From positions 1-41,789 of the forward strand of contig NZ_JAMXMX010000040.1 in NCBI RefSeq assembly GCF_024055725.1: a stretch of DNA of 41,789 nt, in the 5' to 3' direction. Made by a program: the position numbers and the translations under genes. Position 1 is the first letter of the stretch. Each line of letters starts with the position of its first letter. Under the pieces are notes generated by a model that made no database searches, was not told the origin of the DNA, and worked only from the letters and a program-made list of their open reading frames with translations. This DNA comes from Actinoallomurus spadix (lineage in GTDB: Bacteria; Actinomycetota; Actinomycetes; Streptosporangiales; Streptosporangiaceae). Shown here one piece after another: positions 6,764-14,940 of this stretch.

Positions 6764-8254
6764 TCACAGGGCGCCGGCGGCGAGGTCCTCGGCGACCTGG
6801 ACGAGCGTACGGACGGCGGCCCCGGTGCCGCCCTTCGGCGTGTAGCCGTACGGCTGTCCCTGGTTGAAGGACGGGCCGGCGATGTCGAGGTGCGCCCAGC
6901 GCACGCCGTCCGGCACGAACTCCTTGAGGAAGATTCCGGCGACCAGCATGCCGCCCCAGCGCTCCCCGCTGATGTTGGCGATGTCGGCGACGGCGGAGTC
7001 CAGGCCCTTGCGCAGCTCCTCGGGCAGCGGCATCGGCCAGGCGGACTCGCCGGCGCGGCCGGCCGCGCCGACGACCATCTCGCGCACGTCGTCGTCGTTG
7101 GCCATGACACCGGCCGTCCGGGTGCCGAGCGCGACGAGCTGGGCGCCGGTGAGGGTGGCGACGTCGACGATCAGGTCGGGCTCGTCCTCGCCGGCCCGGA
7201 CGATCGCGTCGGCCATGACGAGGCGGCCCTCGGCGTCGGTGTTGAGCACCTCGACGGTCTTGCCGCCGTAGATGGTGAGCACGTCGGAGGGACGCTGAGC
7301 GGTGCCGCTCGGCATGTTCTCCGCGATGGCGAGGTACCCGACGACCTTGACCTTCGGGCCCAGGGCGGCGATCGCCTTCAGCGCGCCGAGCACGGCGCCG
7401 GCGCCACCCATGTCGGACTTCATCCAGTCCATGGCCTCGCTGGGCTTGAGCGACAGGCCGCCGGAGTCGAACGTGATGCCCTTGCCGACGAACGCGACGG
7501 TCTTGGTGGCCTCGGGGTGCTCGTAGGCGAGACGGACGAGACGCGGCGGGTTGACCGAACCCTGGCCGACGCCGACGATGCCGCCGTAACCGCCTTCGAC
7601 CAGGGCCTTCTCGTCGAGGACCTCGACCGACAGGCCGGCCTCCTCGCCGACCTGGCGCGCGGTGTCGGCGAGCGCCTCGGGGTTCAGGTCGGAGGGCGGG
7701 GCGTTGACCAGGTCGCGGACCAGGGAGACGGCCTCGGCGATGGTCCGGGCGCGGTCGAGGGCCCCCTGGACCTCGGCGTTCGTGTCCGCCTCGGTCACCA
7801 CGGTGATGTCCGAGACCGGGCGCTTGTCACCGTCGCCGGTCCGGTAGTTGAGGTAGGCGTAGTTCCCGAGCAGCGCGCCGGTGGCGACGGCCGCCACCTC
7901 CTCCGCGGTGGCGGCGGGCAGCAGGACCGTGACCGAGCCGGAACCCGCGAGGGAGCGCAGCGCGGCACCGGCCGCCCGGCGCAGCGCCTCGGCGTCGTAC
8001 GACTCGCCCAGCCCGACGGCCACCACCAGGGGGGCGGCCAGGTTGCCGAACGTCGGGATCTTGGTGACCTCACCCGGCTTGCCGGCTGCGCCCAACCCGC
8101 TCAGCGCGTCGACGAGACGGCCCTGGAAGGCCTCGTCGACTCCTGCGGCACCGGGCGCCAAGGCCGGTCCGGAGTCATCGGTCACGACGCCGACCACGAC
8201 GGCGTCGACGTCAAGGGAGGCGGATTGAGCGTTGGCAAGGCTGAGGTTCGTCAC
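6764..8254 (-). CDS. pepA: Leucyl aminopeptidase (M17)
   Basis: This cytosolic di-metal exopeptidase removes N-terminal residues from peptides. The 496-residue product has the M17 metal and catalytic motifs: GKGITFDSGGLSLKP, the MKSDMGGAGAV block and the signature NTDAEGRLVMADA. The N-terminal regulatory half is intact. The start is set at GTG 8254, where homologues begin; a 70-codon upstream extension looks non-coding. No Shine-Dalgarno is visible, but TACCAT lies 8 nt before the GTG, suggesting a leaderless transcript. The position beside cobalamin genes and the lipoate locus matches pepB of M. tuberculosis (Rv2213). Confidence 0.95.
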   Translation of the reverse strand: MTNLSLANAQSASLDVDAVVVGVVTDDSGPALAPGAAGVDEAFQGRLVDALSGLGAAGKPGEVTKIPTFGNLAAPLVVAVGLGESYDAEALRRAAGAALRSLAGSGSVTVLLPAATAEEVAAVATGALLGNYAYLNYRTGDGDKRPVSDITVVTEADTNAEVQGALDRARTIAEAVSLVRDLVNAPPSDLNPEALADTARQVGEEAGLSVEVLDEKALVEGGYGGIVGVGQGSVNPPRLVRLAYEHPEATKTVAFVGKGITFDSGGLSLKPSEAMDWMKSDMGGAGAVLGALKAIAALGPKVKVVGYLAIAENMPSGTAQRPSDVLTIYGGKTVEVLNTDAEGRLVMADAIVRAGEDEPDLIVDVATLTGAQLVALGTRTAGVMANDDDVREMVVGAAGRAGESAWPMPLPEELRKGLDSAVADIANISGERWGGMLVAGIFLKEFVPDGVRWAHLDIAGPSFNQGQPYGYTPKGGTGAAVRTLVQVAEDLAAGAL

Positions 8255-8562: not shown

Positions 8563-9345
8563 TCACGCCACCGCCAGCACGACGATCGCCGTGGTCGCGG
8601 ACGCCTCCACGAGCGCGCCGAGGACGTCTCCGGTGACCCCGCCCAGGCGGCGTACCGCGTGCCGGAGCAGCGCGGCCGAGACCAGGAGCCCGGCCGCCAC
8701 GGCCACCGGGGCGAGGACGGCCGGGCGCGCGCCTCCGGCGAGCAGCCCCGCGACCGCCGCGGCGACCATGACGGCCGCCGTCGCCGCGGCGGCGTCCCGG
8801 CGCCGTACCGTGCCGGCGACCAGGGCGCCCAGGCCCTCCGGGCGGGCGGCGGGAACCTCCGCGCGGCAGGCCCACGTCACCGCGAGCCGCCCGGTCACGG
8901 CCGCCACGGTCACGGCGACCGCCCGGTGCGGGGCCTGCGTGAGGGCGGCGACCTGGATCAGCAGGGTGAACACCAGCGTGATGACCCCGAACGGCCCGAT
9001 GTCGGACCGCTTCATGATCGACAGGGCGTCCTCCGCCGGGCGCCCGCTGCCCAGCCCGTCGGCGAGGTCCGCCAGCCCGTCCAGGTGCAGGCCGCGGGTG
9101 AGCAGGGCGGTCGCCCCGGTCGCCAGGGCGGCGCCGAGCAGCGGCCCGGCGCCGAGCAGGCCCGCGACCGTGAGCACCACGGCGGCCGCGACGCCGACGA
9201 GAAGACCGGCGACCGGGGCCAGCGTCATCGCCCGCCGGGCGGTGTCCCGGTCCACCCGGCCGCACCGCACCGGGACGACGGTGAGCAGCGACACCGCCAG
9301 GCGGAGTCCCTCCGCGCCGTGGACTCGCCGGTTCTCTTCCCTCAC
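8563..9345 (-). CDS. cobS: Adenosylcobinamide-GDP ribazoletransferase (cobalamin synthase)
   Basis: CobS is an integral membrane enzyme joining adenosylcobinamide-GDP with alpha-ribazole (phosphate) in the last steps of B12 assembly or salvage. The 260-residue product shows the conserved motif HLDGLADLADGLG (about residues 70-82), which carries metal-binding acidic residues, followed by MKRSDIGPFGV, and about six hydrophobic segments. The start is GTG 9345 because GGAGG precedes it by six bases; a longer in-frame extension is arginine-rich. It is the last gene of the B12-riboswitch operon, 40 bases after cobU. No cobT is seen in this window. Confidence 0.93.
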   Translation of the reverse strand: MREENRRVHGAEGLRLAVSLLTVVPVRCGRVDRDTARRAMTLAPVAGLLVGVAAAVVLTVAGLLGAGPLLGAALATGATALLTRGLHLDGLADLADGLGSGRPAEDALSIMKRSDIGPFGVITLVFTLLIQVAALTQAPHRAVAVTVAAVTGRLAVTWACRAEVPAARPEGLGALVAGTVRRRDAAAATAAVMVAAAVAGLLAGGARPAVLAPVAVAAGLLVSAALLRHAVRRLGGVTGDVLGALVEASATTAIVVLAVA

Positions 9346-9385
9346 GACGTCCTCCGGGCGTCTCCGCCGTCGCGCGTCCCGGCGG

Positions 9386-10336
9386 TCACGGCAGGTCCAG
9401 GACCCGGCCGGCGACGACCAGGGAGGTCTCCTCCGACTCGGCGGCCAGGCGCTGGTTGAGCCGTCCCAGACTGTCACGGAAGGCCCGCCCGCTCGCGGTG
9501 CCGGGCACGATCGACAGGCCGACCTCGTCGCTGACCGCGACGACGTGGGCCCGCGTGGACCGCCAGGCGCCGAGGAGCTCGTCCAGGCGAGGCGTCACCG
9601 CCTGGGGGCGCTCCCAGGCGCCGAGCTCGTCGAACACCGCCGTCAGCCAGGTTCCCATCCCGTCGATGAGGAGTGTGCCCTGCGCCCGGCGCAGCAGGCC
9701 GGCCAGGTCGGCCGTCTCGGCCGTCTCCCACCAGCGGGGGCGGCGCCGCCGGTGCGCGGTGATCCGGTCGCGCCACTCCGGGTCGTCCGCGTGCATGATC
9801 CCGGTCGCGACGTACGTCACGTCGGGGTGTGCGATCACCCGGCGTTCGGCCTCCTCGGACTTGCCCGACCGGGCGCCGCCCAGGATCAGCGACCGCCACG
9901 GCCCGGACGCCGGACGGACCCACCGCTCCAGCCGGCGCTCCAGCTCGGCCGGGGACGCGACGCGGTGGTCGACGTGGACGGCCTCGATCCGGGTCCGGTC
10001 CGTCACCGCACCGGCGCGCCGGAGCCGGCCGAGGTGCGACGGGTCGCCGATGAGGTCCAGGAGCACGGCGTCGTACGGGTCCGGGCCGGCCGGTTCGGGG
10101 CGGGCGCCCGGCCCGGCCGCGAACAGGACCCGGTGCCCGCGCGGTGTGCGGACGTCGTATCCGCCGGGTACCTCGCTCCGGCGGCACTCGTCGAGCGGGA
10201 CCCCGTCGAGGAGGACACGGGTCGGCTCGACACGGCGGCGCGCCGCGCGCATCCGCGTGCAGGAGGAGCAGCGGCAGCCGGGCTCGGGCCAGCCGCGCGG
10301 CCCGGCCGTGCCGAGCAGGTCGATCTCCACGCTCAC
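9386..10336 (-). CDS. cobU: Adenosylcobinamide kinase/guanylyltransferase with extra N-terminal domain
   Basis: The C-terminal half of this 316-residue protein is a complete CobU: Walker A GGARSGKS (about residue 150), the RITAHRRRRPRWWETAE block containing the histidine position that is guanylylated in the Salmonella enzyme, the ATP-site strand LLIDGMGTWLT, and the ending LGRLNQRLAAESEE. CobU phosphorylates and then guanylylates adenosylcobinamide. The first about 140 residues are an added domain opening with GTAGPRGWPEPGCRCSSC, like the N-terminus of PhnP-type metallo-beta-lactamase proteins, but no HxHxDH metal motif follows. The GTG at 10336 overlaps the S-component stop by four bases. 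Related fusions are known in streptomycetes. Confidence 0.9.
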   Translation of the reverse strand: MSVEIDLLGTAGPRGWPEPGCRCSSCTRMRAARRRVEPTRVLLDGVPLDECRRSEVPGGYDVRTPRGHRVLFAAGPGARPEPAGPDPYDAVLLDLIGDPSHLGRLRRAGAVTDRTRIEAVHVDHRVASPAELERRLERWVRPASGPWRSLILGGARSGKSEEAERRVIAHPDVTYVATGIMHADDPEWRDRITAHRRRRPRWWETAETADLAGLLRRAQGTLLIDGMGTWLTAVFDELGAWERPQAVTPRLDELLGAWRSTRAHVVAVSDEVGLSIVPGTASGRAFRDSLGRLNQRLAAESEETSLVVAGRVLDLP

Positions 10337-11352
10337 CGCCCGTCGCCCGTCCCTCCGTCGCCCACCGGTCCGTGGTCCGCTCGCCCGCCGTCCACGGGCC
10401 CGTCGTCCACCTGCTCCTGATCCGCGCGTCCGCCGTCCACGTGTCCGTCGTCCGCCCGCCCGTGCTGCGGGCGCTCGTGGTCCACGTTCCCGTGGTCCGG
10501 CCGCTCGCCGTCCGCCCGCCCGTCGGCGGGCCGGCGGCCGGGCGGAGCCTCGAACGCCGCCCGGCGGGCGGCCCGGCGCAGGGCGAGGAGCACCGGGCGG
10601 CCGGTGACGGCCACCAGGATCGCGGTGAAGACCGCCCGTGGCAGGTCGAACCCGAGGGAGGTGGCGAGGTCGAACGCGACGAACCTCCCGAGATTGTCGG
10701 TGAGCGGAGCGCCCGGGTGGAAGGAGATCGAACTCGACATCCCGCCGGCGAAGGGCCACAGCCCGAGATTCTGCAGCCAGCCGTAGAGGAACGCGGCGAC
10801 CGCGCCGTACGCCGCGAGCATCGCGATCTCCAACCGCCCTCGGGGGCGTCGCGGCAGGCACCCGGCGAAGAACCCCACCCAGGCCGCGCCGAGGATCTGG
10901 TACGGCAGCCACGGCCCCACGCCCGCCGTGATCAGGGCACTGGCGAACATCGTCACCGACCCCAGCAGGTAACCGAACCCGCGGCCCAGCACCCGTCCGC
11001 CGTGGACCAGCACGAAGAACATCGGCTCGAACCCGGCGACGCTCGTGCCGAGCGGCCGGAGCGCCGCGCCGACCGCCCCGAGCACGCCCAGCAGCGCGAT
11101 CGCCTTCGCGTCGATCCCGCCCTCGGCGACCTCGGCGAGCGCCACCGCGAGCAGCAGCGGAAGGAGCAGCACGAAGATCCAGGGCGCGAACGTCGACTGG
11201 GCGATCCGCGCCCCGGGGGCGACCAGTAGCGGCCAGCAGAACGCGACCAGTCCCGCCAGCGACACCAGCAGCAGGGCCGCCCCGGACCGCGCCCGCAGCC
11301 GGACCGGGACCGTGGCGGCCCCGGACCGTCCCCGCGTACGGACCGGGCTCAC
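10333..11352 (-). CDS. ECF transporter S component (B12-regulated) with repetitive His/Asp-rich tail
   Basis: The first about 270 of 339 residues form six or so hydrophobic segments typical of ECF substrate-binding subunits, including a GPWLPYQILGAAWVGFFAG segment. The gene overlaps the fused ATPase (upstream) and cobU (downstream) by four bases each, so it belongs to this transporter. The cobalamin riboswitch and cobU/cobS suggest a corrinoid such as cobinamide; a lower-ligand precursor (as predicted for CblT) is an alternative. The last about 65 residues are unusual: six degenerate ten-residue units rich in Asp, Gly, His and Arg (for example PDHGNVDHER, PQHGRADDGH), predicted cytosolic. Start is GTG 11352. 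Confidence 0.82.
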   Translation of the reverse strand: MSPVRTRGRSGAATVPVRLRARSGAALLLVSLAGLVAFCWPLLVAPGARIAQSTFAPWIFVLLLPLLLAVALAEVAEGGIDAKAIALLGVLGAVGAALRPLGTSVAGFEPMFFVLVHGGRVLGRGFGYLLGSVTMFASALITAGVGPWLPYQILGAAWVGFFAGCLPRRPRGRLEIAMLAAYGAVAAFLYGWLQNLGLWPFAGGMSSSISFHPGAPLTDNLGRFVAFDLATSLGFDLPRAVFTAILVAVTGRPVLLALRRAARRAAFEAPPGRRPADGRADGERPDHGNVDHERPQHGRADDGHVDGGRADQEQVDDGPVDGGRADHGPVGDGGTGDGR

Positions 11353-12950
11353 GACAGCGCCTCCCTGACCTGGTCCACCGTGAGGACCGGCGCCGGAGCG
11401 AGGATCTTGCCGACCTGCGGGGCGAACGCGGGCGAGGACACGACGACCTCGGCTGTCGGGCCGTCCGCGACGATCTCGCCCTCGGCGACGACCACGGTGC
11501 GCGTGGCGACCTCGGCGACCAGCTCGACGTCGTGGGTGGCGAGGACGACCGCGTGCCCACCGGCCGCCAGGTCGCGGACGATCTCCGCCAGGCGTTCCTT
11601 GGCGGTGTAGTCCAGGCCGCGCGTCGGCTCGTCCAGCAGGACCAGGGGCGGCCGTCCGGTCAGGATCACGGCCAGCGCGAGGGCCAGCCGCTGCCCCTCG
11701 GACAGATCGCGCGGGTGCAGCGCGTCATCGACGCCGGGCGCGAGACGCTCGAAGAGGGAGCGGCAGGTGCCGTGCTCCGCCGCCATGTCGCGGTCCGCGG
11801 CCGCGCACTCGGCCGCGACCGTCTCGGCGTACAGCAGGTCGGCGGCGTCCTGCGGGACGAGGCCGGCGGTGCGGACCATGACGCGCGGCGGCGTCTCGTG
11901 CGGCGCCGCGTCGCCGACCCGCACCCGCCCGCCCGCCGGGCGCAGGAGCCCGACCAGGGCGCGCAGCAGGGAGGACTTCCCGGCGCCGTTCCGGCCCATC
12001 AGGGCGATCACCTCGCCGGAGGCGACGGACAGGTCGACGCCGCGCAACGCCGGCACCGGGCCGTACCGGACCTCCAGGCCGTGGACGGACGCGAGCGTCC
12101 GCCGCTCACCGCCCGGCGCGGACGGAACGGGCGGCGGCGCCGTGGCGAGGCGCTCGCGCAGGGGAGCGGCGGCGCGCCGGGCGTCCCGTACGGACAGGGG
12201 GAGCGGCGTCCAGCCGGCCAGCCGTCCCAGCCGGACCACGGGCGGCGCCACCGGGGACTCCACCATGATCGCGCCGGTCGGGCCGTACACGGGCGGCCGG
12301 CCGCCGCCGGGCAGCAGCACCATCGAGTCGGCGAGGTGGACGACCCGCTCCAGGCGGTGCTCGGCGAGGAGGACGGTGAGGCCGAGGTCGTGCACGAGGC
12401 GCTGCAGCGTGGCCAGGACGTCCTCCGCGCCGACCGGGTCCAGCGCGGACGTCGGCTCGTCCAGGACGAGGACCTTCGGATGCGTGGTCAGCACCGAGCC
12501 GATCGCGACCCGCTGCGCCTGCCCGCCGGACAGCGTGCCGAGCGGGCGGTCCCGCAGCCCGGCCAGGCCGAGCAGGTCCAGCGTCTCCTCGACGCGCCGG
12601 CGCATGACGTCCGGCGCGAGCCCCAGGGACTCCATGCCGTACGCCAGCTCCTCCTCGACCACGTCGGAGACGAACCCGGCGCGAGGGTCCTGGCCGACGT
12701 AGCCGACGACGTCGGCGAGTTCGCGGGGCGGGTGGTCGCGGGTGTCCCGGCCGGCGACGGTCACCCGGCCGGTCAGTGTGCCGCCGGTGAAGTGGGGGAC
12801 CAGGCCGTCGACCGCGCGCAGCAGCGTGGACTTGCCGGTGCCGGTGCGCCCGGCGACCAGGCACAGCTCGCCCTCCTCGATCTCCAGGTCGACGTCCGTG
12901 AGCACCGGTGTCCCGCCGTAGCGGAAACCGGCCCGGTCGAAGCGGATCAT
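11349..12950 (-). CDS. ECF transporter ATPase, two fused ABC domains
   Basis: The 533-residue protein joins two ABC ATPase domains, equivalent to EcfA1 plus EcfA2. Domain 1 has Walker A GRTGTGKST (about 34-42), signature LSGGQAQRVA and Walker B LVLDEPTSALD. Domain 2 has Walker A GRNGAGKSS, a less usual signature LSEGQRLALA and Walker B LVLLDEPTRGLD, followed by a switch histidine in ATHDVE. ATP hydrolysis here drives toppling of the S component through the T subunit. The frame stays open upstream, but the ATG at 12950 overlaps the EcfT stop as ATGA, which fixes the start. It overlaps the S gene by four bases downstream. Confidence 0.93.
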   Translation of the reverse strand: MIRFDRAGFRYGGTPVLTDVDLEIEEGELCLVAGRTGTGKSTLLRAVDGLVPHFTGGTLTGRVTVAGRDTRDHPPRELADVVGYVGQDPRAGFVSDVVEEELAYGMESLGLAPDVMRRRVEETLDLLGLAGLRDRPLGTLSGGQAQRVAIGSVLTTHPKVLVLDEPTSALDPVGAEDVLATLQRLVHDLGLTVLLAEHRLERVVHLADSMVLLPGGGRPPVYGPTGAIMVESPVAPPVVRLGRLAGWTPLPLSVRDARRAAAPLRERLATAPPPVPSAPGGERRTLASVHGLEVRYGPVPALRGVDLSVASGEVIALMGRNGAGKSSLLRALVGLLRPAGGRVRVGDAAPHETPPRVMVRTAGLVPQDAADLLYAETVAAECAAADRDMAAEHGTCRSLFERLAPGVDDALHPRDLSEGQRLALALAVILTGRPPLVLLDEPTRGLDYTAKERLAEIVRDLAAGGHAVVLATHDVELVAEVATRTVVVAEGEIVADGPTAEVVVSSPAFAPQVGKILAPAPVLTVDQVREALS

Positions 12951-13999
12951 GCCCGGATCCTCCGCAGGAGCACCGGGGCGAGGGCGACCAGCACGCCGGC
13001 GGCCGGGAGCGCCGGCAGGCCGGGGACGGTTCCCGGCACGGGCCGCAGGCCGTCGGTGCCGATGAGGCCGGCGACGGTCATCGCGGCGGCGGCCAGCACG
13101 CCGGAGCCGCCGGTGACCCACTCCGGCAGCGCCCACGGGTCCGGCCGGTACCGCGTCCGCGGCGAGCGGCGGCCTCCCAGCCACAGGCCGGCCGCGGCGC
13201 ACACCGTCCCCGCGAGCAGCACCGGCGTGCCCAGCGCCGCCGGCGCCTGCCCGTCGAGGAGGCCGTAGAGTCCCGCGCACACCGCGAGGAGCCCGCCGAG
13301 GACCAGGGCGGCGGTGGCCCGCCGCCGTGCGCGGGGCACCGCGGCGGTACGCCCGTACCCTCGCGCGTCCATCGCGGCGGCCAGCTGCACGGACCGGTCC
13401 AGCGCCCCTTCGAGCACCGGCATGGCGAGCCGCCGCAGCGACCGGATGCCCCGGTCGGCGCGGCCGCGCAGGCGCTGCGCGTCGCGGACCCGGCGGACGT
13501 GCGCGACCGCCTGCGGCGCGAACGTCATCGCCACGACGACCGCGACGCCCACCTCGTACAGCGCACCGGGCACCGACTTCAGCAGCCGGCTCGGCGCGGC
13601 CAGCGCGTTGGCCGCGCCGACGCAGACGAGGACGGTCGCGAGCCGCAGCGCGTCGTACCCGGCGACGGTCAGGCCCTCGGCGGTCACCGGCCCGCCGACC
13701 CGCAGCCCCGCCATCCAGGACGGCAGGGTCACCGACGGCAGCGTGACGAGCGTGGTGCCCGGCGCCTGCGCCGCGAACACCGCCCCGAACACCAGCCGCA
13801 CCACGACCACGAACAGGCCGATCCGCAGGAACATCCCGTACGCCCGCGCCCAGGGATCGTCGGTCCGGCGCACCGCGACCACGGTCCCGGTCACCGCCCC
13901 CACCAGGAGCAGGAGCAGCGGGTCGGTCGTCCGGGTGGCCGCCGTCGCGAGCCCCAGCGCCCACAGCCACCAGGCGCCGGGATGCACCCGCCGGGTCAT
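12947..13999 (-). CDS. ECF transporter transmembrane (T) component
   Basis: The 350-residue membrane protein has N-terminal hydrophobic segments, a cytosolic coupling region with two helices (VRRVRDAQRLRGRAD and the AMDARGYGR Ala-Arg-Gly signature that contacts the ATPases), and further C-terminal hydrophobic segments that make it longer than minimal EcfT proteins. The ATG at 13999 has a strong AAGGAGGAG upstream. It is the first of three transporter genes joined by four-base overlaps and lies 64 bases after the SCO2322-like gene, within the riboswitch operon. Confidence 0.92.
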   Translation of the reverse strand: MTRRVHPGAWWLWALGLATAATRTTDPLLLLLVGAVTGTVVAVRRTDDPWARAYGMFLRIGLFVVVVRLVFGAVFAAQAPGTTLVTLPSVTLPSWMAGLRVGGPVTAEGLTVAGYDALRLATVLVCVGAANALAAPSRLLKSVPGALYEVGVAVVVAMTFAPQAVAHVRRVRDAQRLRGRADRGIRSLRRLAMPVLEGALDRSVQLAAAMDARGYGRTAAVPRARRRATAALVLGGLLAVCAGLYGLLDGQAPAALGTPVLLAGTVCAAAGLWLGGRRSPRTRYRPDPWALPEWVTGGSGVLAAAAMTVAGLIGTDGLRPVPGTVPGLPALPAAGVLVALAPVLLRRIRA

Positions 14000-14063
14000 G
14001 GCTCCTCCTTCGTCGGAGGGGGGACCAGAGGTGCTGTGCTCCCGATGCGCTCGCCGCGCCCGC

Positions 14064-14723
14064 TCATCGGCGCGACCGCCGCGCCGCGGCGAGACCGCCG
14101 CCCGCGGCGACGACCACGACCAGGCCGATCCCGGCGTACAGCCCGACGGGTGTCCCGGAGTCCTTCTTCTTCTCCGCGGCCGTCTTCGCGGTCGCGGCCG
14201 CGGTGGGGGACGGGGCGATCGGTATGGCGCAGGTCCCGAAGGAGTCGATGGCGCAGATCAGGCCGCTCTTGTCCGCCTGCGGGGCGCCCGCCGCGGCGAG
14301 GACGTCGGAGCCCGTGGCGTTCTCCGGGACGGTCGCGCAGAACCGCTTCGCGGCGGGCGGCACCTGACCCTTCGGGGCGTCGCCGGCCTCGCCGTAGTCG
14401 ATGACGACGGCGACGCGCTTCTTGCCCGCCGGGGTGCCGCTCCCGGACCCGCATACGGCGGCGAAGTCCGGCTTGTCGCGGGGCGGGGTCCCGGTGTTCC
14501 CGCTCGACTTCGCGAACCGCCACCCCTCGACGGCGCCGTCCTTGGGATGGGCCTGGGCAGGGCCCGTGCTCGCGAAGGCCCACGTGCCGCCCTTGGCCTG
14601 CCAGTATCCCCAGAACGCCGCACCGTCGGCGTGCGCGCCGGACATCGGCGCGAACACCAGCGCGGAGGTGAGGAGACCCGTTACGATCTTCGTGGCGGGG
14701 CGGCCGGCTGCGATCTTCGGCAT
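14064..14723 (-). CDS. SCO2322-like secreted, membrane-anchored protein; candidate corrinoid-binding protein
   Basis: I recognise this as similar to a streptomycete family named after SCO2322, which has no established function. The 219-residue product has a signal peptide (about 1-32, ending GAHADG), an extracellular domain of about 150 residues starting FWGYWQAKGGTWAFASTGP then AVEGWRF, four cysteines (VCGSG, RFCAT, LICAID, GTCAI), a Lys/Ala/Pro-rich stalk, and a C-terminal transmembrane helix followed by RRSRR. The W-G-Y-W start and the hydrophilic ...GAVEGWRF strand recall DUF4430, the fold of the C-terminal domain of animal transcobalamin/intrinsic factor; this is inference from pattern only. 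It is the first gene behind the cobalamin riboswitch. Start ATG 14723 has AGAAAGG upstream. Confidence 0.72.
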   Translation of the reverse strand: MPKIAAGRPATKIVTGLLTSALVFAPMSGAHADGAAFWGYWQAKGGTWAFASTGPAQAHPKDGAVEGWRFAKSSGNTGTPPRDKPDFAAVCGSGSGTPAGKKRVAVVIDYGEAGDAPKGQVPPAAKRFCATVPENATGSDVLAAAGAPQADKSGLICAIDSFGTCAIPIAPSPTAAATAKTAAEKKKDSGTPVGLYAGIGLVVVVAAGGGLAAARRSRR

Positions 14724-14809
14724 GGGCGCCTTTCTGGGGGCGGGTGGTCCCCGGTGAAGCGGGCGCACTCGATGCCGCACGCGCCCGGACTCCATCCGCA
14801 GACCACGAC

Positions 14810-14940
14810 GGAACGACGGAGCCGCTCGCGCCGGCCCGGGCATTCCGGCTCGCCGCCGGGCGGGACGCCCGTACGGCCTACGGTTGCGGGTCAGCGCCGG
14901 ACTTGGACCGGCTTCCCCCGCGACGGCGCGTGTGCTGCTG
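14810..14940 (-). ncRNA. Cobalamin riboswitch
   Basis: The minus strand carries the conserved cobalamin aptamer blocks in order: GGGGGAAGCCGGT, CAAGTCCGG, GCTGACCCGCAACCGTA, and the B12-box-like GAGCCGGAATGCCCGGG at 14836-14852. The P2 helix can be drawn between CGCGCC (14925-14930) and GGCGCG (14827-14832); CGGGG pairs with CCCG in the P3 arm. About 90 bases separate the aptamer from the SCO2322-like start codon, room for an expression platform. In this class adenosylcobalamin binding represses downstream genes, here the whole ECF-cobU-cobS operon. Boundaries are approximate. Confidence 0.88.

Follow-up and report, generated by a model that had tools for sequence, protein, structure and literature searches.

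Proposed riboswitch-led corrinoid salvage in Actinoallomurus spadix: a putative anchored capture protein with a probable permuted transcobalamin-like domain

What does a secreted protein of a family named by locus tag alone do between a cobalamin riboswitch and a membrane importer? The question is raised by a stretch of 41,789 nucleotides of Actinoallomurus spadix (contig NZ_JAMXMX010000040.1 of assembly GCF_024055725.1, positions 1-41,789; hereafter the window), whose minus strand carries, from 5' to 3', a cobalamin riboswitch, a gene of the SCO2322 family, the genes of an energy-coupling factor (ECF) transporter (EcfT, a fused EcfAA and EcfS) and those of the enzymes CobU and CobS. The answer favoured here, with moderate confidence, is that this is a B12-repressed corrinoid salvage operon in which the SCO2322-family product would be an anchored capture protein built on a permuted, transcobalamin-type beta-grasp domain. 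The features concerned are the following.

14810..14922, minus strand: cobalamin riboswitch of the actinobacterial form, the 5' leader of the operon (covariance model R1, 81.2 bits)
14064..14723, minus strand: SCO2322-family protein, predicted to be secreted and membrane-anchored (NF040672, 139.3 bits, cut-off 85)
14508..14618, minus strand: block 1 of its domain (W-rich, DG.V.GWRF), corresponding to the C-terminal half in DUF4430-like order
14229..14453, minus strand: block 2 of its domain (C..G.KRV.V.IDYG ... C ... ATG.DVL ... LICAI ... C), corresponding to the N-terminal half
14064..14153, minus strand: its C-terminal hydrophobic anchor with RRSRR (sequence inspection)
12947..13999, minus strand: EcfT, CbiQ family (PF02361, 34.3 bits, cut-off 25)
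11349..12950, minus strand: fused double ATPase EcfA-EcfA' (two ABC_tran stretches)
10333..11352, minus strand: EcfS, the substrate-binding membrane component, whose tail is long and charged (residues 1-251 aligned with homologues)
9386..10336, minus strand: CobU, Pfam match at residues 150-314, preceded by some 149 additional N-terminal residues (PF02283, 158.4 bits)
8563..9351, minus strand: CobS, adenosylcobinamide-GDP ribazoletransferase (PF02654, 163.8 bits; the start codon is the analysts' choice)

This order, and the three four-base junctions described in a model's earlier reading of the bare sequence (the original prediction), are confirmed by the coordinates and the family matches; the overlaps lie at 12947-12950 (EcfT/EcfAA), 11349-11352 (EcfAA/EcfS) and 10333-10336 (EcfS/CobU). 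The transporter possesses an EcfT, two ATPase domains and an S component, the last recognized through its homologues: in the Pfam scan of the operon proteins EcfS has no match of its own, and the S-component family PF12822 is matched by 18 of the 26 rows of the EcfS homologue alignment, a count that does not include the window row. A profile of EcfS found no PDB sequence at an expectation value (E) of 1 or less.

The riboswitch that had been placed at the head of the operon is borne out, albeit by a dedicated model. In a 551-base search, Rfam RF00174 reaches 26.9 bits at 14838-14918 (E 5.9e-5), under its gathering score of 31.5, and at that score the leader has no match. The covariance model R1 was trained on 18 riboswitches lying in front of homologous clusters, the window and its three nearest relatives being left out, and it gives 81.2 bits at 14810-14922 (E 4.7e-16); the core and the B12-box region are shared with the homologous loci. 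Because RF00174 yields 26.9 bits and R1 nevertheless 81.2, the leader is, as judged from sequence, a real cobalamin riboswitch that scores low against the Rfam model. Its folding z score of -1.45 is uninformative, and a match to Actino-pnp at 14743-14807 is at chance level (14.7 bits versus a gathering score of 47.7). Two further cobalamin riboswitches above the Rfam cut-off are present in the same genome (L001 and L002; 90.5 and 76.4 bits).

The association extends well beyond this species. A scan of species genomes with the pattern DG[AS][VT]xGWRF[ATG] yielded 129 relatives, the best 80 of which were kept as named loci; since they were gathered by that pattern, the sample leans to motif-bearing members. 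The EcfT-AA-S genes follow the SCO2322 gene in 69 of these 80 loci; where the downstream sequence exceeds 4.5 kb they do so in 68 of 70, L070 and L089 being the exceptions. In 66 loci R1 detects a same-strand riboswitch ahead of the gene (64 of the 75 whose upstream sequence exceeds 2.5 kb). Of these 66 riboswitch-positive loci, 14 belong to the R1 training set, while 52, plus the window, lie outside it. Given these counts, the sampled homologues do not lie mostly outside B12-regulated loci, one of the three circumstances named at the outset as speaking against the original prediction. Riboswitch, SCO2322 gene and ECF genes thus form a conserved unit, which is also complete in five loci from genomes of 1.3-1.6 Mb (L155-L159, of which L155 is in the training set). 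CobU and CobS are both found downstream in 22 of the 64 loci having more than 8 kb on that side. Whole-genome Rfam searches, made for 50 of the 80 loci and kept outside the locus tally, returned a cobalamin match in all 50, above the cut-off in 46, among the matches listed. The closest relative of the window protein is that of Actinoallomurus soli (93% over 136 columns).

Two oddities were met in this sample. The homologue at L070 (Streptomyces rimosus) is an orphan copy, with neither ECF genes nor a detected riboswitch in its 20 kb, and stands near a frame that by inspection resembles a polyketide synthase. L139 and L144 are contigs from bins labelled Bifidobacterium breve; because they cluster with environmental actinomycetes on the tree, these labels may be wrong.

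The protein itself is assigned to the SCO2322 family by 139.3 bits against NF040672, well over the curated cut-off. By inspection it carries a Sec-type signal ending in AHA-DG and, at the C-terminus, a hydrophobic stretch followed by RRSRR. AlphaFold2 returned a confident model (predicted local distance difference test score 91.6, predicted template modelling score 0.87), in which block 1 forms strands at residues 7-15, 18-21 and 35-43, and block 2 forms strands at 72-80 and 97-104, a helix at 109-116 and strands at 119-121 and 127-130. The beta-grasp order beta1-beta2-alpha-beta3-beta4-beta5 is therefore not found natively, the strands of residues 7-43 preceding the strand-strand-helix-strands series; the order of the modelled elements fits a beta-grasp only after permutation. 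Weak matches that the protein has to purine nucleoside phosphorylases, the best at E 0.0057 and covering residues 81-128, were treated as chance, which is a judgement.

Such a permutation is also indicated by profile comparison. The SCO2322 profile matched in addition, mostly via its first third, a further group of proteins in which the halves of the domain occur in the opposite order. This sister family comprises 17 sequences from 11 loci (L149-L154, L164, L202 and L204-L206). Its genes lie beside those for EcfT, EcfAA and EcfS in 10 of the 11 loci (tblastn) and beside the first two in L152, and R1 finds riboswitch sites in 10 of the 11, with none in L151, where the genes are near a contig end. 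When the SCO2322 profile was doubled head-to-tail, it matched the sister family with a score of 104.9 over 107 columns spanning the junction, versus 76.3 over 45 columns for the undoubled profile; the controls gave 1.9 (reversed) and 15.2 (top of 100 column shuffles), and the match widens to 126 columns with the sister N-terminus included. All 56 SCO2322 rows and all 17 sister rows of the two alignments share four cysteines in matching order. Conversely, the sister-family model matches 78 of the 80 loci, in 58 with both segments swapped, in 20 with one segment and in none in native order. Going by these alignments, the SCO2322 proteins are circular permutants of an actinobacterial sister family. 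Adjacent gene pairs are the expected intermediate for permutation by duplication, and four of the 11 loci (L150, L151, L153 and L154) have adjacent sister genes, while L152 and L164 have two separated copies; the permutation may have arisen through duplication of a sister-family gene.

The sister-family order, being the unpermuted one, moderately matches that of DUF4430, the beta domain of transcobalamin. With hand-picked sets, hhalign aligned nine half-swapped sequences with 11 of DUF4430 at a probability of 63% (E 7e-5, 95 columns). Larger sets gave lower values: 6.6% for the sister family (score 18.5; best shuffle 10.5), 22.3% for SCO2322 (23.4; doubled profile 23.0, with a best shuffle of 11.1) and 7.6% for the two combined (19.0; best of 200 shuffles 13.0, reversed 3.0). 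Across these comparisons, with 100 or 200 shuffles each, the reversed controls scored 3 to 5, and the similarity to DUF4430 exceeded shuffled and reversed controls in all sets, to a moderate degree. The W-rich start that had been likened to DUF4430 does resemble it, corresponding to its C-terminal half, because the SCO2322 domain is circularly permuted; at the level of single sequences no Pfam DUF4430 match accompanies the resemblance. The further step from DUF4430 to transcobalamin rests on published structural work (PMC1796856, consulted in part). A DUF4430 profile searched against PDB sequences retrieved two transcobalamins, Transcobalamin-1 at E 0.12 and Transcobalamin-2 at E 0.95, besides 3u7z (E 0.0073), a putative metal binding protein. 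The combined alignment A7, searched against the PDB, had an antibody as its sole match (E 0.55).

Among the 296 genomes searched for DUF4430 proper, two of the window's class possess it; the window's own genome has it at no place. In one of the two (L202), a cluster with a riboswitch in front brings together a sister-family protein, EcfT, EcfAA, EcfS, an alpha/alpha-toroid protein and, as its last gene, a Pfam-level DUF4430 protein. In the other (L203), a cobalamin riboswitch of 81.3 bits (10214-10319, minus strand) lies at the 5' end of a solo DUF4430 gene, itself at about 9598-10287 on the minus strand.

In transcobalamin an N-terminal toroid is fused to the beta domain, whereas the window operon is without a toroid and the relatives have a separate upstream gene for one: a secreted alpha/alpha-toroid protein is encoded directly upstream of SCO2322 in 49 of the 80 loci, L121 and L144 being cut by contig ends. 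The three toroids tested (L065, L068 and L160) belong to SCO2321_fam (NF053823, 395.9 to 581.9 bits, cut-off 300); those from three sister-family clusters remain under that cut-off, at 68 to 89 bits. Each of the 30 aligned SCO2322-linked toroids has a match (E<=1) to the toroid family of squalene-hopene cyclases, and their profile finds squalene-hopene cyclases at E 2e-27. None of these 30 matches PF01122 (Cobalamin_bind) at E<=1; weak matches are confined to sister-cluster toroids (E 0.12 in L149 and E 0.1 in L202). A tree was built from 80 rows, namely the window and all named loci but L141 (79). The distribution of the toroid on it requires three changes, at a toroid-less clade of 30 rows including the window (support 95/77), at L070 and at L135, a locus truncated by the end of its contig. 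With the tree rooted at its midpoint, on which the direction rests, the toroid was probably lost in the window's lineage rather than gained elsewhere.

From these elements the following mechanism is proposed. When B12 is scarce, the riboswitch would permit expression; the SCO2322 protein would be exported and remain attached to the membrane's outer surface, where its permuted DUF4430/SLBB beta-grasp domain would help to capture cobalamin or cobinamide, together with the toroid where one is present, and pass the corrinoid to EcfS. EcfT and EcfAA would then power ATP-driven import, and CobU and CobS would convert imported cobinamide to cobalamin. In most relatives, the secreted SCO2321 toroid would supply the other half of a split transcobalamin. 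Context and homology support the reading as a whole; that the ligand is a corrinoid, that it is bound directly and that it is handed over to EcfS, we infer. A wider version, for and against which the case appears evenly balanced, holds that across actinomycetes a split permuted transcobalamin, made of the SCO2321 toroid and the anchored SCO2322 protein, sandwiches B12 outside the cell and loads the ECF importer, the permutation having come about by duplication of sister genes, of which tandem pairs survive.

Several results weigh against the capture-protein reading. In the DUF4430 search of the PDB, unrelated chains are interspersed at E 0.0054 and 0.18, because of which the step to transcobalamin is weak by sequence. 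Searches of single sequences with PF14478 (DUF4430) gave no match in native order at E<=1, none with the halves swapped at E<=10 and none in the sister family. The predicted fold found no PDB match with sequential aligners (Foldseek/VIA); the structure prediction proposed for the original idea delivered a confident model with an element order suited to a permuted beta-grasp, and these aligners returned no counterpart. The toroid profile retrieved no transcobalamin chain at E<=1; since squalene-hopene cyclases are matched and transcobalamin is not, what these toroids share with it is a fold class and no specific relationship. Finally, the window operon lacks a toroid gene, the best candidate in the whole genome scoring 34.2 bits against the SCO2321 cut-off of 300. 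The proposal that the protein is a bacterial analogue of one half of transcobalamin is partly supported, with gene context and profile homology on its side.

The same facts about the toroid lend themselves to another explanation, in which the operon imports corrinoids and the SCO2322 protein does not bind them, serving as an ECF assembly, gating or cell-wall-spacing subunit, or as a lid of the toroid that became a relic where the toroid was lost. The gene has been kept throughout the 30-row clade that includes the window, although no toroid lies near it there and none above the cut-off exists in the window's genome. Nevertheless, the domain is moderately related to a ligand-binding beta-grasp family, and the gene is retained beside EcfT-AA-S in the 1.3-1.6 Mb genomes of L155-L159, and a non-binding role is considered unlikely.

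The nature of the cargo is a separate matter. CobU and CobS act on adenosylcobinamide and its GDP form, and cobalt importers employ CbiQ-type proteins and B12 riboswitches. Among 394 genomes of the window's class, SCO2322 is above the cut-off in 135 and CbiC, one marker of B12 synthesis rather than the whole pathway, in 203; CbiC is present in 47 of the 135 and absent from 88, among them all 30 from a family whose genomes measure 1.3-2.2 Mb (Fisher p 1.7e-6 for the association, a value inflated by kinship). The window's own genome has CbiC and may make B12, and because of this the operon would here serve salvage. A related compound, namely a lower-ligand base or an early corrinoid such as cobyrinate diamide, could be the cargo instead of cobinamide or cobalamin, since B12 riboswitches control such uptake too. 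A review gives cbrUVT as a cobyrinate diamide uptake system (PMC8123684). Against this stand CobU and CobS, which belong to the window operon, lie close to the gene in 22 of the 64 relatives and make such a cargo improbable. Cobalt import by a CbiMNQO-like system under a cobalamin riboswitch, to which an EcfT of the CbiQ family and a genome with CbiC would be suited, is highly improbable, because 88 of the 135 SCO2322 genomes without CbiC are hard to reconcile with a cobalt role, and because EcfS has no match to CbiM (neither CbiM nor CbiN is among the listed Pfam matches of the operon proteins) while its homologues match PF12822 in 18 of 26 rows.

The preferred reading, corrinoid capture by a permuted beta-grasp protein, has precedents among known systems. 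With the beta domain of animal transcobalamin and intrinsic factor (DUF4430, SLBB superfamily) the system shares a predicted secreted beta-grasp-like domain, a toroid neighbour in relatives and a B12-linked context; it differs in its swapped halves, its separate or missing toroid, its membrane anchor, its putative ligand and the lack of a Pfam-level match. The general idea is not new: Burroughs et al. (2007, PMC1796856) described extracellular SLBB proteins, toroids and CbiO/CbiQ in predicted operons of low-GC Gram-positives and proposed B12 scavenging, in bacteria that usually lack key B12 synthesis enzymes. Their clade covers low-GC Gram-positives, planctomycetes and, less often, euryarchaea, and neither "Streptomyces" nor "permut" appears in the text of that paper. 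Unlike those systems, the present one is found in actinomycetes, with a permuted domain, a riboswitch in most sampled loci and, here, CobU-CobS in the operon. ECF-CbrT is an ECF transporter for cobalamin and cobinamide, whose Lactobacillus S component shares its ECF module with others, and the parts consulted of the paper on it mention no surface capture protein (PMC5997447); the EcfS of the window, in contrast, has its own module, and is without a PDB sequence match at E<=1. BtuFCD, an ABC importer whose periplasmic binding protein is BtuF and to which ECF modules are unrelated according to the same source (PMC5997447), resembles the present system in its import of cobalamin and cobinamide, as proposed here.

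The NCBIfam entries SCO2322_fam (NF040672) and SCO2321_fam (NF053823) are names without a function, to which the permutation and the link to B12 are now added. SCO2322 was not found in the open-licence literature searched, and judging by titles and abstract openings, none of the DUF4430 papers there concerns bacterial B12 uptake; within that literature, what is new is the system in actinomycetes, together with its permutation, the sister family and the riboswitch counts. A family that occurs in 135 of 394 genomes of its class, reduced ones without CbiC included, thereby acquires a testable ligand and fold, suggesting a route by which B12 may be captured in many bacteria of soil and freshwater. 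If the reading is true, B12 capture of the transcobalamin type would extend from animals and low-GC Gram-positives to actinomycetes, a vitamin-binding domain would have undergone circular permutation in nature, and an ECF importer would possess a dedicated surface capture protein.

Other features of the locus deserve a brief mention. The tail of EcfS (10333-10600, minus strand) is repetitive and charged, DG.AD.G-like by inspection, and is missing from the 276-residue relative at L116. The N-terminal extension of CobU (9890-10336, minus strand) contains closely spaced cysteines and gives weak matches to PhnP and PqqB (E 0.09 and 0.15), by which it is possibly a cut-down metallo-hydrolase domain; it is common to L081 and L096 and is split into two pieces in L148. 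Near the cluster, at 6764-8251 on the minus strand, lies a gene for leucyl aminopeptidase (PepA), which also neighbours the cluster in 20 of the 80 named relatives and in each of the five loci L155-L159, within the flanks covered.

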